Assembly (NCBI GenBank): GCA_021805485.1
Contig: JAJZFF010000261.1
Coordinates: forward strand, 1 to 7,900
Direction of reading: 5' to 3'
Length of the DNA: 7,900 bases
Source of the DNA: Pseudomonadota bacterium
GTDB lineage: Bacteria > Pseudomonadota > Alphaproteobacteria > Acetobacterales > Acetobacteraceae
Shown here: piece by piece, positions 974 to 7,850 of the stretch
How positions within the stretch are numbered: the stretch's first letter is position 1
Layout: each line of letters opens with the position of its first letter
Made by a program: the position numbers and the translations under genes
The notes under the pieces: model-generated
Told to the model about the DNA's origin: nothing
Seen by the model: only the letters and a program-made list of their open reading frames with translations
Database searches by the model: none

Positions 974-2230
974 TCAGCGTCGGCGGGCGTCCGGCAGCAC
1001 ACCGGCGCGGCGCAGGGCGGCGATGTCCTCGGCGGTGAAGCCATTGCGTGCCAGCACCGCCTCGCTGTGCTCGGCGAAGCGCGGCGGCGCGGCGCGCGTG
1101 CCGCCAGGCGTGCGCGAGAGCTTGATCGGCGTGCCGAGGCCGCGATAGGCGCCGAGTTCGGTCAGCATCGCGCGCGCCGCCGTGTGCGGCGCGGCGAGCG
1201 CTTCGTCCACCGCCAGCACCGGCCCGGCGGGCAATCCGGCGCGCAGGAGGCGCAGCGCGAGGGCGTGACCGTCCTCCGCGGCGAGCGCGGTAGCGAAGCG
1301 GGCGGCCAGCTCGCCGCGATTGGTGAGGCGGTCGGCGTTGGTGGCGAAGCGCGGGTCGGTGCCGAGTTCGGCCAGGCCGAGTTCGGCGCAGAGGCGGCGG
1401 AACTGCCCGTCATTGCCGGCGGCAAGGAAAATCTCGCCGGTCGCGGTGCGGAACTTCTCGTAGGGCGCGAGATTGGGATGCGGATTGCCGGTCGCCACCG
1501 GGCGCCGGCCGTTCAGCAGATAGTTGGCGGCCTGGGGATGCAACAGCGCCATGCCGCAATCGTGCAGCGTCATGTCGACGAACTGGCCCCGACCGGAGCC
1601 GCCGCGCTCATGCAGCGCCATCAGGATGCCGATGGCGGCGTAGAGGCCGGTGGCGAGATCCACCACCGGGGTGCCGAGCCGCAGCGGGCCGGTGGTCGGA
1701 TCGCCATTGATGCTCATCAGCCCGGTCATCGCCTGGAGGATGGCGTCGTAGCCCGGGAGCCCGCCGAGCGGCCCCTCGGCGCCGAAGCCGGAGACGCGGC
1801 AATGGATCAGGCGCGGGAAGCGGGCAGCCAGCGTCTGTTCGTAGCCGATGCCCCATCTCTCCAGGCTGCCGGGCTTGAAATTCTCCACCAGCACGTCGGC
1901 GCCCGCGAGCAGGCGCAGCAGCACATCGCGCCCTTCCGGGGTGCCGATGTCGAGCCCGACCGACTGCTTGTTGCGGTTGACGCCGATGAAGTAGCTGGCG
2001 TCGCGGGTGCCGTCGCCATGGTCGAGGAAGGGCGGACCCCAGTCGCGCACCTCGTCGCCCTGCGGCGGCTCCAGCTTGATCACCTCGGCGCCGTGATCGG
2101 CGAGGATCATGGTGCAGTACGGCCCGCCGAGCACGCGGGTAAGGTCGATGACCCGAAGCCCGGCGAGGGCCCCCGGGGAGGTGGCGAGCGCCTTGCCCGA
2201 AGGCTCCTGGCCACCTTGCGTGACGTCCAT
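974..2230 (-). CDS. CaiB/BaiF family (family III) CoA transferase
   Basis: This 418-residue protein belongs to the formyl-CoA/carnitine CoA-transferase family, which moves CoA between an acyl-CoA donor and a free acid through an aspartyl anhydride. Visible family features are the N-terminal L-x-G-L-R-V-I-D-L-T-R-V-L-G-G-P nucleotide-fold start (residues 22-37), E-V-I-K-L-E-P (49-55), N-R-N-K-Q-S-V-G-L-D (85-94), L-V-E-N-F-K-P-G (114-121) and G-x-G-Q-F-V-D-M-T-L-H-D (213-224). By position relative to oxalate CoA-transferase Frc, D224 is the likely catalytic aspartate. Length is normal for the family (about 380-430). The ATG at 2230 is preceded by AGAGGA (2239-2244), and only 14 bp separate it from the stop of the preceding CoA-transferase subunit, so it is part of the same operon. 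The substrate is unknown. Family members act on oxalate, carnitine, succinate/itaconate, aryl acids and others, and nothing here selects among them. Confidence 0.93.
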   Translation of the reverse strand: MDVTQGGQEPSGKALATSPGALAGLRVIDLTRVLGGPYCTMILADHGAEVIKLEPPQGDEVRDWGPPFLDHGDGTRDASYFIGVNRNKQSVGLDIGTPEGRDVLLRLLAGADVLVENFKPGSLERWGIGYEQTLAARFPRLIHCRVSGFGAEGPLGGLPGYDAILQAMTGLMSINGDPTTGPLRLGTPVVDLATGLYAAIGILMALHERGGSGRGQFVDMTLHDCGMALLHPQAANYLLNGRRPVATGNPHPNLAPYEKFRTATGEIFLAAGNDGQFRRLCAELGLAELGTDPRFATNADRLTNRGELAARFATALAAEDGHALALRLLRAGLPAGPVLAVDEALAAPHTAARAMLTELGAYRGLGTPIKLSRTPGGTRAAPPRFAEHSEAVLARNGFTAEDIAALRRAGVLPDARRR

Positions 2231-2244
2231 GGCTCTTGTCCTCT

Positions 2245-3000
2245 TCAGGCCCTGCCCCAGACGCGGGCGCAGAAGCCGGGATAGGTCGCGCGCATCTCGG
2301 CGGCAACCGGGCCGCGGAGCAGCGCGAGTTCGTCCCCCGTCGGCGCCGGCGTTTCCGGCACCGCGCCCGGTGCGTCGAAATCGAACCCGGTCGCCGCCCG
2401 GACGCTGGCCAGGCTCTCGCCGGGATGGACGGAGTCGAGGGCGAAGCGCGCCCGGGCCGGGTCGAAGCGGAAGACGCAGCGCGCGGTGAGCAGCGCCTGC
2501 GCCGTGCCGCGGCGGAACACCTCCGGCGGCGAAACGCCGGCGGCGGAGATCCAGTCCACCCGCGGCACCAGCACCCGCGGCGAGTGTTCCTCGCGGAACA
2601 GGATGGTGCGCGGGGTCATCATGTACATGAAAGCCGAGCCGAAGCTGCCGGGGAAGCGCACGCCGCGGAACGGGGCTCCGGCCGCCGGCCATTCGCCGGT
2701 GCCGAGCAGATTGATATTGGCGGCGCCGTCGATCTGGCCGCCGCCAAGGAAGAAGAGGTCGATACGGCCCTGCGCGGTCAGGTCGAAGAGCTCGCACGTG
2801 CCCTCGGAGAACGGGTTCGCCTCCTCGCGGTGCAGCAGTGACAGCCGCACCGGATGACCCGAGAGCTTGACCAGCCAGCAGGCCGCCGCCGGGATCGGGC
2901 TGGCCGCGCCGACGGCGATGTGGCGGGCGGGCGGCGCGGCGGGGTCGAGGATCAGCCGCGCCAGCGAGACGGCGAGCCGTTCCTCCAGTGTCGGGGTCAT
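2245..3000 (-). CDS. Family I CoA transferase, beta subunit (glutaconate CoA-transferase/IpdB-like)
   Basis: This 251-residue protein resembles the beta subunits of glutaconate CoA-transferase (GctB) and the related ring-opening enzyme IpdB. Supporting features are the early G-A-A-S-P-I-P segment (31-37), the strand with H-R-E-E (57-60), the loop G-G-G-Q-I-D-G-A-A-N-I-N (86-97; compare GGAQIDPYGNVN in GctB), the G-S-F-G-S-A segment, and the C-terminal V-H-P-G-E-S-L-x-x-V-R-A-A-T-G-F-D-F-D block typical of the family (SSPEDVLENTGFDLD in GctB). GctB carries its catalytic glutamate (E54) in an ESG context. Here E59 or E60 are the candidates, but the context differs, so classical CoA transfer is probable, not proven. 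The ATG at 3000 overlaps the alpha-subunit stop by 4 bp (ATGA), the usual coupling for two subunits of one enzyme. Substrate unknown. Confidence 0.88.
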   Translation of the reverse strand: MTPTLEERLAVSLARLILDPAAPPARHIAVGAASPIPAAACWLVKLSGHPVRLSLLHREEANPFSEGTCELFDLTAQGRIDLFFLGGGQIDGAANINLLGTGEWPAAGAPFRGVRFPGSFGSAFMYMMTPRTILFREEHSPRVLVPRVDWISAAGVSPPEVFRRGTAQALLTARCVFRFDPARARFALDSVHPGESLASVRAATGFDFDAPGAVPETPAPTGDELALLRGPVAAEMRATYPGFCARVWGRA

Positions 3001-3818
3001 TCCGCCGCCGCCGCGATCGCCGGGGCGACATGCTCGGCGAGATAGGCTGCGAACCCCTCCCTGGTGCGGGCCGCGCGCGCATAGGCGAGAAGGTGCTCGG
3101 CGTCGGTGGGATAGTCGTCGAGCAGCCCGATCGGCCAGGCGCCGCGGGGGGCCAGCGCCACCGCCTCGACATAGGTGCCGGAAATGACGCCCGGCGCCAG
3201 CTTCTCGTCGGCCAGAAGGTTGCCGGCAACGCGCCGCTCCGCCGTCACCAGCACGCGCCGGGAAGCATGCGCCAGCGTCGCCAACTCCCGCCGCCGTCCG
3301 ACCCAGACATTGCCCTCGTCGTCGGCCATGGCGGCATGGAAAATGCCGACATCGGGGGCCAGTGCCGGCAGTAGCAGGATCGGGTCCCTGGTCGCGCTGA
3401 ACGGGTTGTCGATCACCATCCAGTCCGGCCGGTGGGCCAGCAGGTCGCTGCCGAGCACGCCGCGCATCGGGATGAAGGGCACGCCCTTCTCGGCGGCCTG
3501 CAGCCGCGCGTGCATCGCCGGGCAGGTGGCGTCGCGCAGCACGATCTCGCCGGCGGCCAGCGCGGCGAGGAAGCGCGGCGCGCCACCCGCCTCGCCCAGC
3601 GTCACCGCGCTCGTATCGAGTTCGGCGACGCAGCCGGCGCCGATCAAGAGGTCGGTCGCGTAGCCCGAGACCGGGACGCCGACGAGGCGCAGCCCGCGCA
3701 CCCCGCGCCGCACCAGCGCGCGGGCGAGCGCGCTCGGGGTCAGGGAGTTGTCCGGCGGCAGGGCCACCAGCGCGCCATCGGGGACGCGTGCGGCGAGATC
3801 ATCGAGCGAAATGAACAT
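2997..3818 (-). CDS. Family I CoA transferase, alpha subunit (glutaconate CoA-transferase/IpdA-like)
   Basis: This 273-residue protein matches alpha subunits of the glutaconate CoA-transferase group. It has the early P-D-G-A-L-V-A-L segment (13-20), a L-R-L-V-G-V-P-V-S-G strand-turn (43-52), the family block R-L-Q-A-A-E-K-G-V-P-F-I-P-M-R-G-V-L-G-S-D-L (105-126), A-D-D-E-G-N-V (165-171, usually ADxxGN), and a C-terminal Y-A-R-A-A-R-T-R-E-G-F-A-A-Y-L helix (246-260). In IpdA the stretch before LQAA contains acidic residues (E-M-D-E); here it reads R-D-A-T-C-P, so the IpdA hydrolase role is not supported. The ATG at 3818 has the best ribosome-binding site in the window (AAGGAGGGG, 3822-3830, core about 5 nt from ATG). 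This suggests strong, independent initiation. The stop overlaps the beta-subunit start. The enzyme is presumably a cytoplasmic alpha/beta complex; the acid it activates is not identifiable. Confidence 0.9.
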   Translation of the reverse strand: MFISLDDLAARVPDGALVALPPDNSLTPSALARALVRRGVRGLRLVGVPVSGYATDLLIGAGCVAELDTSAVTLGEAGGAPRFLAALAAGEIVLRDATCPAMHARLQAAEKGVPFIPMRGVLGSDLLAHRPDWMVIDNPFSATRDPILLLPALAPDVGIFHAAMADDEGNVWVGRRRELATLAHASRRVLVTAERRVAGNLLADEKLAPGVISGTYVEAVALAPRGAWPIGLLDDYPTDAEHLLAYARAARTREGFAAYLAEHVAPAIAAAAE

Positions 3819-3821
3819 CGA

Positions 3822-3830
3822 CCCCTCCTT
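3822..3830 (-). promoter_or_regulatory. Strong ribosome-binding site of the CoA-transferase alpha subunit
   Basis: The minus strand reads AAGGAGGGG followed by TCG and the ATG at 3818. The AGGAGG core is a perfect Shine-Dalgarno match at good spacing. It fixes the alpha-subunit start and contrasts with the weak or absent sites at aroQ and at the repeat protein (1-972). Confidence 0.8.
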
Positions 3831-3864
3831 GCCTTGGTGTCAGCCCAACCTTCGTGTCAGCCCA
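3831..3864 (-). repeat. 17-bp imperfect tandem duplication at the DLH stop
   Basis: On the minus strand TGGGCTGACACGAAGGT (3848-3864) is followed directly by TGGGCTGACACCAAGGC (3831-3847), 15 of 17 positions identical. The first copy carries the DLH stop codon (3857-3859). The second copy lies in the 38-bp gap before the CoA-transferase alpha subunit and abuts its Shine-Dalgarno. It looks like a short replication-slippage duplication. No function is evident. Confidence 0.75.
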
Positions 3865-4552
3865 GCGCGGCGACGAGCGCCTCGGTACTGCGGCCATTGG
3901 CGATCGCCGCCGAGCGCCCGTCCCAGTGCACGCCTTTGACGCGGGCGAAGGCGTGGTCCGCGTCGTAGTGATAGGCATGCACCAGCCGGTTCCCGCGCAC
4001 CGCGGCATCGACCTTGGCCCGACCCTCGGCGGGAAAATACTCGTCGCGGTCGGCGATGTGCACGACCAGGGGCGCGCGCAACGCGTCGAGCTCGCCGATC
4101 AGGCTGTCGAGCCCGACGCCGTAGTAGGAGATGTTGACGTCGGCGTCGGACTGCTCGGCCATCATGAAGGCGAGCCGGCCGCCGAGGCAGTAGCCGATGG
4201 TCCCGGCGCGGCCGTTGCAGCCCGGAAGCTTGCGCGCCGCCGCGAGGGTCGCCTTGAGGTCCTCGATCCCCTTGGCCTGGTCGAACCCCTGGAACAGCTC
4301 GAAGGCGCGCTTCCACTCGGCCTCGGTCTTGTCGGTGAGATCGATGCCCGGCTCGATGCGCCAGAACAGGTCCGGGCAGACGGCGATGAAGCCGAGATCG
4401 GCGAGGAAGGCGCAGGTCTCGCGCATCGCCGCGTTGACGCCGAAAATCTCCTGGATCACGACGACGGCGCCGGCCGGCTTGCGCGCGGGCTCGGCGACGA
4501 AAGCCGAGAAACGGCCGGAGCCGTCGGTGGCTTCAATGCTGATGGTGCTCAT
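3857..4552 (-). CDS. Dienelactone hydrolase family protein
   Basis: This 231-residue alpha/beta hydrolase matches carboxymethylenebutenolidase (DLH) in size and active-site layout. Q-E-I-F-G-V (34-39, with the conserved E35), nucleophile C122 in G-Y-C-L-G-G (120-125), D170 in D-R-D-E-Y-F-P and H200 in D-A-D-H-A-F form the Cys-Asp-His triad expected from DLH (Cys123/Asp171/His202). Classical DLH opens dienelactones to maleylacetate in chloroaromatic breakdown, but the family is broad and many members have other ester or lactone substrates. The start at 4552 is chosen because homology begins at M-S-T-I-S-I-E and because GAGGGGG lies upstream (4565-4571, 12 nt). The frame continues open to an ATG at 4627, but the extra 25 residues do not look like family sequence. 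It is the first gene of a probable operon with two kinds of CoA transferase, so its product acid may be their substrate (inference). Confidence 0.9.
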   Translation of the reverse strand: MSTISIEATDGSGRFSAFVAEPARKPAGAVVVIQEIFGVNAAMRETCAFLADLGFIAVCPDLFWRIEPGIDLTDKTEAEWKRAFELFQGFDQAKGIEDLKATLAAARKLPGCNGRAGTIGYCLGGRLAFMMAEQSDADVNISYYGVGLDSLIGELDALRAPLVVHIADRDEYFPAEGRAKVDAAVRGNRLVHAYHYDADHAFARVKGVHWDGRSAAIANGRSTEALVAALG

Positions 4553-4589
4553 GGACGGTTTGTTCCCCCTCGGTGTCGAATGGTCCGAT

Positions 4590-4614
4590 GCCAACGCCTG
4601 CTCCGGGCGTTGGC
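4590..4614. other. Perfect 9-bp inverted repeat (hairpin) between accC and the DLH gene
   Basis: GCCAACGCC (4590-4598) and GGCGTTGGC (4606-4614) are perfect inverted copies around a 7-nt loop. On the transcribed minus strand the hairpin lies 66 nt after the restored accC stop and about 38 nt before the DLH ATG. There is no T-run after it in either direction, so it is not a canonical intrinsic terminator. It could be a transcript-end or stability hairpin for accC, a leader structure of the downstream operon, or a regulator-binding palindrome. Confidence 0.5.
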
Positions 4615-4679
4615 TGAATCGGCTCATGAAATCAGACGCGTGCTTCGACGCATTGTGATCCTTGCGAACCGGTCAACCA

Positions 4680-4719
4680 CTAGTGGCCGGCGACGAAGCG
4701 CTCCAGCCAGTGGATCGTG
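4680..4719 (-). other. Out-of-frame C-terminal tail of accC (after a +1 frameshift)
   Basis: The in-frame accC sequence ends ...F-Q-R-G-D followed by TAA (4720-4722). Ignoring one of the two T's at 4720-4721 (plus strand) turns TAA into TAC, and the reading then continues T-I-H-W-L-E-R-F-V-A-G-H to a TAG at 4680-4682. The Y-x-I-H-W-L-E-x-F motif is the standard C-terminus of bacterial biotin carboxylases (compare DYDIHWLEKYL-type ends in alphaproteobacteria). The tail brings the protein to 446 residues, close to the usual 447-449. This is therefore a remnant of coding sequence displaced by a single-base insertion, or a sequencing or assembly error. Confidence 0.88.
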
Positions 4720-6021
4720 TTAGTCGCCACGCTGGAACCCGACATCTTCGACGATGCGCTGGTGTAGCGGCAAGGTGGTTTTGATGCCGACGACGACGAA
4801 CTCGGCCAGCGCCCGACGCAGCCGTGCGATCGCCTGGTCACGGGTCGGCGCGTGCACGATCAGCTTCGCCACCAGGCTGTCATAGTGCGGCGGCACGCGG
4901 TAGCCGGCATAGAGCGCGGAATCGACCCGCACGCCCAGCCCGCCGGGCGGATGGAAGGCGGTGACGCGGCCGGGTGTCGGCACGAAGGTCTCGGGATCTT
5001 CCGCGGTGATGCGGCATTCGATGGCGTGGCCGGTGAAGCGGATGTCGGACTGGCCGTAGCCCAGCTCCTGGCCGGCGGCGATCCGGATCTGCTCGCGGAC
5101 CAGATCGATGCCGCAGACCATTTCCGTCACCGGATGCTCGACCTGCAGGCGGGTGTTCATCTCGATGAAGGCGAACTGGCCGTCCTGGTAGAGGAATTCC
5201 AGCGTTCCGGCGTTCCGGTAGCCGATCTTCGCCAGCGCCGAGGTGGCACGCGCGCCGAGCGCGTCGCGTTCAGCGGCGCTGAGCGCCGGCGAGCCGGCTT
5301 CCTCGACGAGCTTCTGATGGCGGCGCTGGAGGCTGCAGTCGCGCTCGCCGAAATGCACGACCTGGCCGCGCCCGTCGGCGAGCACCTGGAGTTCGATGTG
5401 GCGCGGCCGGTCGAGATATTTCTCGAGATAGACGGCATCGTTGCCGAACGCGGCGCGCGCCTCGGTGCGTGCGGTGCGCCAGGCTTCCTCGATCTCGTCG
5501 GCGTCGTTGGCGACCTTCATGCCGCGCCCACCGCCGCCGGCGGCGGCCTTGACCAGCACCGGGTAGCCGATCGCCGCGGCGATGCGCCGCGCCGCGTCGA
5601 GGTCGCTCACCGCGCCGTCCGAGCCCGGCACCAGCGGCACGCCGAGCGCGGCCATTGCGGACTTGGCCTCGATCTTGTCGCCCATCATGCGGATATGGGC
5701 CGGCGAGGGGCCGATGAAGGCCAGGCCGTGGGCTTCGACCATCTCGGCGAAATCGGCGTTCTCGGAGAGAAACCCGTAGCCGGGGTGGATCGCGTCGGCC
5801 CCGGTGATGGTGGCTGCGGACAGGATCGAGGCGGCGTTGAGATAGCTCTCGCGCGCCGGCGGCGGGCCGATGCAGACGCTCTCGTCGGCGAGTCGGACGT
5901 GCATCGCATCGGCGTCGGCGGTGGAATGGATGGCGACGGTCGGGATGCCGAGTTCGCGGCAGGCGCGCTGGACGCGCAGCGCGATCTCGCCACGATTGGC
6001 GATGAGGATTTTCTGGAACAC
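4720..6021 (-). CDS. accC: Biotin carboxylase subunit of acetyl-CoA carboxylase (C-terminus cut by a frameshift)
   Basis: AccC carboxylates the biotin on AccB using ATP and bicarbonate, the first half of the acetyl-CoA carboxylase reaction in fatty acid synthesis. The N-terminal domain begins [23 protein letters not shown] is at 79-88 and the ATP-binding K116 is in G-D-K. The ATP-grasp glycine loop G-G-G-G-R-G-M is at 162-168, H-I-E-L-Q at 208-212, and the catalytic [13 protein letters not shown] at 288-300. The start is GTG at 6021, 4 bp after the accB stop, so the two are surely cotranscribed. As read, the protein is 433 residues and ends at R-G-D. The missing 13-residue tail lies in the +1 frame just downstream. 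Known active-site residues are all present, so the truncated product might still work, but an essential gene with a lost terminal helix more likely signals a sequence error. Confidence 0.95.
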
Positions 6022-6025
6022 GCTT

Positions 6026-6478
6026 CTATTCCAGGATCAGGAGCGGCTCGCCGTATTCCACCGGCGCTCCGGAACTGACCAGGATACGGGTGACGGTGCC
6101 GGCGCGCGGCGCCTTGATCTGGTTGAAGGTCTTCATCGCCTCGATGAGCAGCAGGGTCTGCCCGGCCGTGACCGTCTGACCGACGGTGATGAAGGGCGCC
6201 GTCCCGGGCTCGGGGCTGAGATAGACGACGCCGACCATGGGGCTCGGCACCGCGCCCGGGTCCGGCGCGGCCGGCTCGTTGGTGGGCGAGGCCATCACCG
6301 GGGCGGCGATGGGCGCGGCAGCGGTGGCGAGCGCGGCCGGGGCCGGCGCCGGAGCGAGCGCGCGGACGACGCGGATGCGGCTGTCCTTCTCGGCGATCTC
6401 GATTTCCGTCAGGCCGGTTTCGGTCAGGATCGCGGCGAGCTGACGGATGGCGGCGGGGTCGAAGGGTACCTGGCTCAT
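6026..6478 (-). CDS. accB: Biotin carboxyl carrier protein of acetyl-CoA carboxylase
   Basis: AccB carries the biotin that shuttles carboxyl groups from AccC to the carboxyltransferase (AccA/AccD, not in this window). The 150-residue protein has the usual three parts. A helical N-terminal region contains [18 protein letters not shown] (11-28), followed by an Ala/Pro-rich linker (about 41-78) and a C-terminal biotinyl domain (79-150). The biotin site is E-A-M-K-T-F-N with K116 as the modified lysine. The S-P-E-P-G-T-A-P segment (88-95) corresponds to the 'thumb' loop that distinguishes acetyl-CoA carboxylase BCCPs from other biotinyl domains. The gene follows aroQ by 21 bp, with AGG-containing sequence just upstream of the ATG, and precedes accC by 4 bp. 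Length and domain layout are normal. Confidence 0.96.
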
Positions 6479-6499: not shown

Positions 6500-6964
6500 T
6501 CAATCGGCATCCAGCACCCCGGCCTGATCGAGCAGCCCGGCCATCGCGGTCAGCGCCAGCGCGTAGCCGCGCACGCCGAGGCCGCAGATCACGCCGGTCG
6601 CCGCGCGCGACACGAAGGAGTGGTGCCGGAATTCCTCGCGGCGGTGGATGTTGCTGATATGCACTTCGATCACGGGCAATTCCACGGCGAGCAGCGCGTC
6701 CATCAGCGCGACCGAGCTGTGGGTATAGCCGGCCGGGTTGATGACGATGCCCTGCGCCCGGCCGCGACACTCCTGCACCCAGGAGATCAGCTCGCCCTCG
6801 CCGTTGGTCTGCCGGAAGTCGATGGCGAGGCCGAGCGCCTCGGCGGCCTCGGCGCAAAGGGCCTCGACGTCGTCCAGCGTCGCCGAGCCGTAGATCTCCG
6901 GCTGGCGCAGCCCGAGCAGGTTGAGGTTGGGGCCGTTGAGAATGACGATCAGCGGTTCTGCCAT
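6500..6964 (-). CDS. aroQ: Type II 3-dehydroquinate dehydratase
   Basis: This 154-residue enzyme dehydrates 3-dehydroquinate to 3-dehydroshikimate, the third step of the shikimate route to aromatic amino acids. The family signature [11 protein letters not shown] is at 8-18, followed by R20-x-P-E-I-Y25-G carrying the mobile-lid arginine and catalytic tyrosine. Q-T-N-G-E-G-E-L-I is at 52-60, the substrate loop I-N-P-A-G-Y-T-H at 75-82, and the catalytic histidine H102 in V-H-I-S-N with R-E-E-F-R after it. Length is typical (about 145-155). The ATG at 6964 is chosen because the conserved N-terminus starts there. The open frame extends to 7204 but only as non-homologous sequence inside the upstream gene. 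There is no strong Shine-Dalgarno. The aroQ-accB-accC order is common in proteobacteria. Cytoplasmic, normally a dodecamer. Confidence 0.96.
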
Positions 6965-7016: not shown

Positions 7017-7850
7017 TCAGTGCTCCGGGAGGGCGGGCTCTGCGCTCGCCGCGGGGCCGGAGCCCGCCAGGGCGGGCGGCAGGCCGACGGCGGATTCGCG
7101 CCCGCGGACGCCGTCGAACGCGGCCTTATCGAACTGAGCGCCGGTGAAGTCCGCGCCGGCGATGTCGGCGCCGGAGAAATCGGCCATGAAGAGGTCGGCG
7201 CCAAGGAAGCGCGCGCCCTGGAGATGGGCGAAGGCGAAGGAGGCGCGGCCGAGCTCGGCGTGGCTGAAATCCGCGCCCTCCATGTGCGCGCCGGCGAAAT
7301 CGGCGTGGATCAGCCCCATCGACTGGTTACGCATGTCGGCGGCGGCGTGCGTGCCGATGAATTTCGCGCCGCGGAAATCGAAGCCGGCGAAATGGCCCTG
7401 GACGCGGGCGGCGGAGAAATCCGCGCCGGCGAAGATCGGCGCCTCGGCCGGGTTCGTCTCCAGCCCGGAGGCGACGACCATGGCGCTGACCATGGCGCCC
7501 TGCAGGTTGGCGCCGGTGAAATTGGCGCGGATCACCCAGGCCAGAGCCAGATTGGCGCCGGCGAGGTTGGCGCCGTGCAGATCGGCATCCTCCAGCTTGG
7601 TCGCATAGAGGTCGGCCCCGGCGAGGTCGGCCCCGGAGAGATTGAGACGGCTGAGATCCAGCCCGGCGAGGGAGAGATGGGAGAAATCGGCGGGGTGGCC
7701 CGGCGCGGCAGCGGCGAGCGCGGCGCGCACCTGGGCGGCGTCGAGATCGGCGGCGTAGCCCGGCGCGGCGAGGGTGAGCAGCAGGCCGGCCGCGAGCGCG
7801 CCCCCCCGCAGCGTCCGCGGCAGCCGCTGGCTTGCTTGTCGTGCCGTCAT
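7017..7850 (-). CDS. Exported pentapeptide-repeat protein
   Basis: This 277-residue protein starts with a clear signal peptide: basic n-region, hydrophobic [12 protein letters not shown] (18-29) and a G-Y-A-A-D cleavage region near residue 33/34. The mature part is mostly A-(D/N)-(L/F)-x-x repeats, which family structures show folding as a square right-handed beta helix. One block covers about 54-120 ([25 protein letters not shown]). Then comes a break with E-T-N-P-A-E-A-P (131-138) and a second, F-rich block to about 248 ([15 protein letters not shown]). A low-complexity Gly/Pro/Ala tail ends the protein. No catalytic domain is attached, so a specific role cannot be assigned. A periplasmic structural or binding function is the plain reading. 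It sits 52 bp upstream of aroQ and its ATG overlaps the stop of a preceding reading frame (ATGA). No clear Shine-Dalgarno is visible. Confidence 0.92.

Follow-up and report, generated by a model that had tools for sequence, protein, structure and literature searches.

A surplus base near the 3' end of accC in an acetobacteraceal contig, probably an error in the sequence or else a mutation of very recent origin

The accC locus and its neighbours

The window, by which we mean the whole 7,900-nt stretch of DNA analyzed here, carries the biotin carboxylase gene accC on the minus strand (4720..6021). The reading frame starts with GTG at 6021 and closes after 433 codons with TAA at 4722-4720, and the protein has been deposited in the database with a length of 433 aa. 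This 433-residue AccC scores 688.6 bits with TIGR00514, compared to an AccC equivalog cut-off of 626.5, and 732.7 with NF006367, compared to a cut-off of 597; the family match, above the cut-off in both cases, spans residues 1 to 433. The minus-strand letters at the end of the gene are ...GGC GAC TAA CAC GAT CCA CTG G..., and the premature TAA (4720..4722, minus strand) contains one base more than the equivalent site of two close relatives, L001 and G084, both of which have a Tyr codon there. Translation of the next frame past the TAA gives TIHWLERFVAGH, which represents the last 12 residues of the family and is followed by TAG at 4682-4680. This remnant of the AccC C-terminus lies out of frame at 4680..4719 on the same strand, and the remaining two frames lead to unrelated sequence. 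We infer that a 12-residue match to the conserved tail, positioned right after the stop in a shifted frame, is far beyond chance. The missing in-frame tail is a lesion in a member of the AccC family and is not the mark of a separate family. A preliminary description of this DNA had reported the same coordinates, the shifted-frame tail, the TAG at 4680-4682 and a restored length of 446 residues, all of which agree with our reading of the frames and with the 446-aa length of the nearest homolog, P0002.

The other genes of the window are also on the minus strand. Upstream of accC lies its partner accB (6026..6478; PF00364), which encodes the biotin carboxyl carrier protein and is matched in 79 of 80 related loci. 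The next upstream neighbour is aroQ (6500..6964; PF01220), coding for a type II dehydroquinase and matched in 68 of the 80 loci; some of the loci stop short of the position of aroQ. Upstream of aroQ is a pentapeptide-repeat protein (7017-7850), for which tblastn gave a match in one of the 80 loci (L001), some of the loci ending too early to tell. Immediately downstream of accC is a gene for a dienelactone hydrolase-family protein with an intact frame (3857..4552; PF01738), accompanied by a CoA-transferase-family protein (2997-3818; PF01144), a 251-aa ORF without a Pfam match (2245-3000), and a type III CoA-transferase (within 974-4552). We presume that the 2245-3000 ORF is probably the partner subunit of the 2997-3818 protein. 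At E 1e-5, neither Pfam nor NCBIfam gave a match to an open-ended ORF at 2-1044, which contains no indel relative to L001. The genes at 974-4552, located 3' of accC, are uncommon neighbours among the 80 related loci; matches were found for the dienelactone hydrolase in 3, the 2997-3818 protein in 8, the 2245-3000 ORF in 7 and the type III CoA-transferase in 5, with some loci ending early. The spacer that follows accC (4553-4679) is short in both the window and L001, and G084 contains approximately 350 nt more there (gaps of 228, 55, 31 and 39 nt).

A megablast comparison with plasmid records returned 48 matching records. Five listed matches extended over 19–20% of the window, taking in accC and part of accB at 73–75% identity, and one further record matched in one place at 90–95% identity. 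No plasmid record covered 80% of the window, so nothing in this comparison suggests a known plasmid.

Conservation of the site and of the C-terminal tail

The DNA comes from an alphaproteobacterium near the Acetobacteraceae. The closest match among the 80 related loci is L001 (Acetobacteraceae bacterium isolate clean415), which aligns in one piece over the whole window at 92.2% DNA identity (7868 aligned bases). G084 (region L106) aligns at 92.0% identity (7147 aligned bases). At the position of the window's TAA, both relatives have TAC and lack the surplus base, and their ORFs run intact over 446 codons. Compared with the tail of the window, that of G084 has one silent codon difference, and that of L001 has one silent codon difference and a different last residue. 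P0002, the nearest protein among the best 120 of 8000, is 446 aa in length, is identical at 430 of the 433 window residues (99%), and has the C-terminal end GDYTIHWLERFVAGH. The comparison of sister accC 3' ends proposed in the preliminary description thus comes out in favor of its view, both relatives keeping the tail in frame without the surplus base. A shorter AccC specific to this clade is ruled out by the full-length proteins of L001 and G084 and by the 99%-identical P0002.

The site could be read in 79 of the 80 related loci, the last base of the remaining one (L021) falling just before it. The codon is TAC in 51 loci and TAT in 28, and a stop in none; the proposal that the TAA occupies the position of a family Tyr codon therefore holds for all 79. 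Note that the 80 loci are the best of 574 by match to the 433-residue query and under-represent broken copies. All 79 readable loci carry the conserved tail [IV]-H-W-L-E in frame, whereas it is out of frame in the window. Among the best 120 of 8000 scored proteins, a length of 433 aa is found for the window AccC alone; the other 119 are 445–461 aa long and all contain [IV]HWL[ED], with Phe replacing Y434 in four of them and IHWLD (Asp for E440) found in one.

We also examined a draw of 100 family genomes, a sample less biased than the 80 loci although overlapping with them and including both close relatives. In 93 of the 100, the accC frame runs without an internal stop as far as residue 443-446. 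The other seven missed the strict E-value of 1e-200 and were re-inspected. Four of these (G008, G095, G092 and G034) show the C-terminal part as separate pieces, 77–81% identical, with open frames to residue 444-445. In G070 a single 60%-identical AccC match stays open as far as residue 444, and no tail of the genome's own AccC could be read in G027 or G075. The surplus base is private to the window among all of the sequences compared.

An alignment of 25 proteins selected from the 119 shows no variation at residues Y434, I436, H437, W438, L439, E440, F442 and V443 of the tail. A structural model of P0002 places residues 438-445 in a terminal helix (block mean pLDDT of 87 and 78). The model is of middling quality (mean pLDDT 80.1, pTM 0.80, 25 sequences) and is weak at residues 33-60 (pLDDT under 50), the other four models ranging from 72 to 47. 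Based on this model, the stretch lost from AccC is probably structured. The equivalog cut-off passed by the truncated AccC says nothing about activity, and a literature search on C-terminal truncation of biotin carboxylase or AccC returned no match.

Quality of the window and constraint on accC

Over approximately 7.5 kb of coding sequence aligned to L001, no indel other than the accC base breaks a frame, which gives one frame break in approximately 2,510 codons aligned to L001 and in approximately 2,270 aligned to G084. For these codon counts and for the aroQ matches, the aroQ range was taken from 6489 and so took in a few codons beyond its stop, a detail on which no conclusion depends. The remaining coding indels relative to these two relatives are of 15, 9, 12, 9 and 6 nt. 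A generally error-ridden window is ruled out by this count of one frame break. A further indel relative to L001, 17 nt in length, sits at the dienelactone hydrolase stop codon without altering the end of the protein. At and after this stop (3832-3864), there are two 16-nt copies, 94% identical and spaced 17 nt; 17 nt are missing here in L001, and the sequence of G084 is similar in length and only loosely alike.

Codon differences within accC number 52 silent and 11 replacement relative to L001, and 57 silent and 10 replacement relative to G084, a pattern of substitution that points to a gene under constraint and not decaying. A scan for terminators and promoters around the end of accC found none. 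Taken together, the data show an accC that is ordinary and constrained except for a single private surplus base.

Origin of the surplus base

We consider it probable that the surplus base is a sequencing or assembly error. In this explanation, an ordinary acetobacteraceal accC lies beside aroQ and accB, and a surplus base at 4720-4721 in the assembled sequence turns the Tyr-434 codon into a stop and pushes the last 12 residues out of frame. As an error is the most likely origin, the real gene of the cell probably encodes a protein of normal length. The preliminary description had offered an error, a very recent event or bypass by frameshifting. That it is one of the first two is strongly supported, the base being absent from L001 and G084 (approximately 92% identity to the window) and from all 79 loci with a readable site. 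The base is private relative to the close relatives, a pattern that a real new mutation would also produce. Against an error is the nature of the site: the base falls within a run of no more than two A/T in a sequence of 71% GC, and long homopolymers are absent there, all eight runs of at least 5 being located elsewhere in the window.

A real and very recent one-base insertion is a possible but less probable origin. It would leave an AccC without its 13-residue C-terminal tail that is still active enough, or a dead-end variant or fatty-acid auxotroph. The sequence itself is compatible with such an insertion. The tail is undecayed, with the few differences from L001 and G084 described above, the truncated AccC still scores above the equivalog cut-off, and a lone lesion in otherwise clean sequence also fits a real new mutation. 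Loss of accC function is known in other organisms: in Fructilactobacillus, one of two accC paralogs is reported to be interrupted by an IS element (PMC12724224), and drug-selected fatty-acid auxotrophs of Staphylococcus aureus are reported with accC loss-of-function (PMC6102330). The real accC lesions described in these reports come from paralogous or selected situations (PMC12724224, PMC6102330). Weighing against a real insertion are the lack of any lesion at the site in the 79 readable loci or in the 119 listed proteins among the best 120 of 8000, the invariance of Y434, I436-E440, F442 and V443 with rare exceptions among the 119, the modelled helix at residues 438-445, and the presence of one AccC each in the L001 and G084 genomes.

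Two further explanations were considered. In one, accC would be a redundant copy undergoing decay, another biotin carboxylase having taken over; the preliminary description had raised a second biotin carboxylase for the case of a real lesion. Each close relative does contain two more long proteins with a biotin carboxylase domain, but these are 51–56% identical, have open frames of 659–970 aa and coexist with an intact AccC, and accC of the window sits with aroQ and accB and is constrained. The L001 and G084 genomes, for which completeness is not stated, have a single AccC each, so redundancy is unlikely; we reject a decaying copy, an explanation to which we assign almost no probability. In the other, a prfB-like +1 frameshift at the TAA, either programmed or opportunistic, would give full-length AccC. 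This would account for a stop at the shift site followed by C and for the conserved tail in the +1 frame. Yet a stop is found at the site in none of the 79 readable loci, and none of the five SD-like motifs sought as a stimulator is present in the 20 nt upstream of the shift site. In addition, the P-site codon GAC is not slippery in the +1 direction, as by general decoding rules re-pairing would be on ACU, to which tRNA-Asp is poorly matched. The bypass by programmed slippage raised earlier is thus not supported, given the unshared stop and the missing upstream motif, and we regard it as highly improbable. It is very unlikely that, as a peculiarity of one strain, a living strain uses an AccC without the conserved C-terminal helix or employs a non-canonical +1 bypass.

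Overall, an error in the sequence or a mutation of very recent date is the most likely interpretation, in preference to a novel mechanism. The case is mainly one of quality control, in which a gene caller reports a truncated version of a normally essential enzyme, and neither a tolerated truncation nor recoding should be read into the accC stop. A real base would raise the question of whether AccC can do without its conserved C-terminal helix.

In prfB-type genes, programmed +1 frameshifting takes place at a stop codon. The window resembles this type in having a stop at the shift point and the conserved product in the +1 frame, but differs in that the shift site is not conserved, no SD-like motif is found, and the P-site codon is not considered slippery. 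Another parallel is provided by assembly frameshift errors, in which one assembly has a break in a conserved gene that close relatives carry whole (PMC2330054). As reported for a comparison of two Vibrio fischeri strains, 75 of 82 suspect loci were errors, the majority being frameshifts; resequencing followed the comparison, and the study confirmed five genes as true pseudogenes (PMC2330054). This precedent dates from 2008 and a different technology, and its errors were resequenced, whereas that of the window is deduced from comparison (PMC2330054). Relative to the AccC family, accB adjoins accC in the window as it does in the family, and the last 13 residues of AccC are missing through one surplus base.
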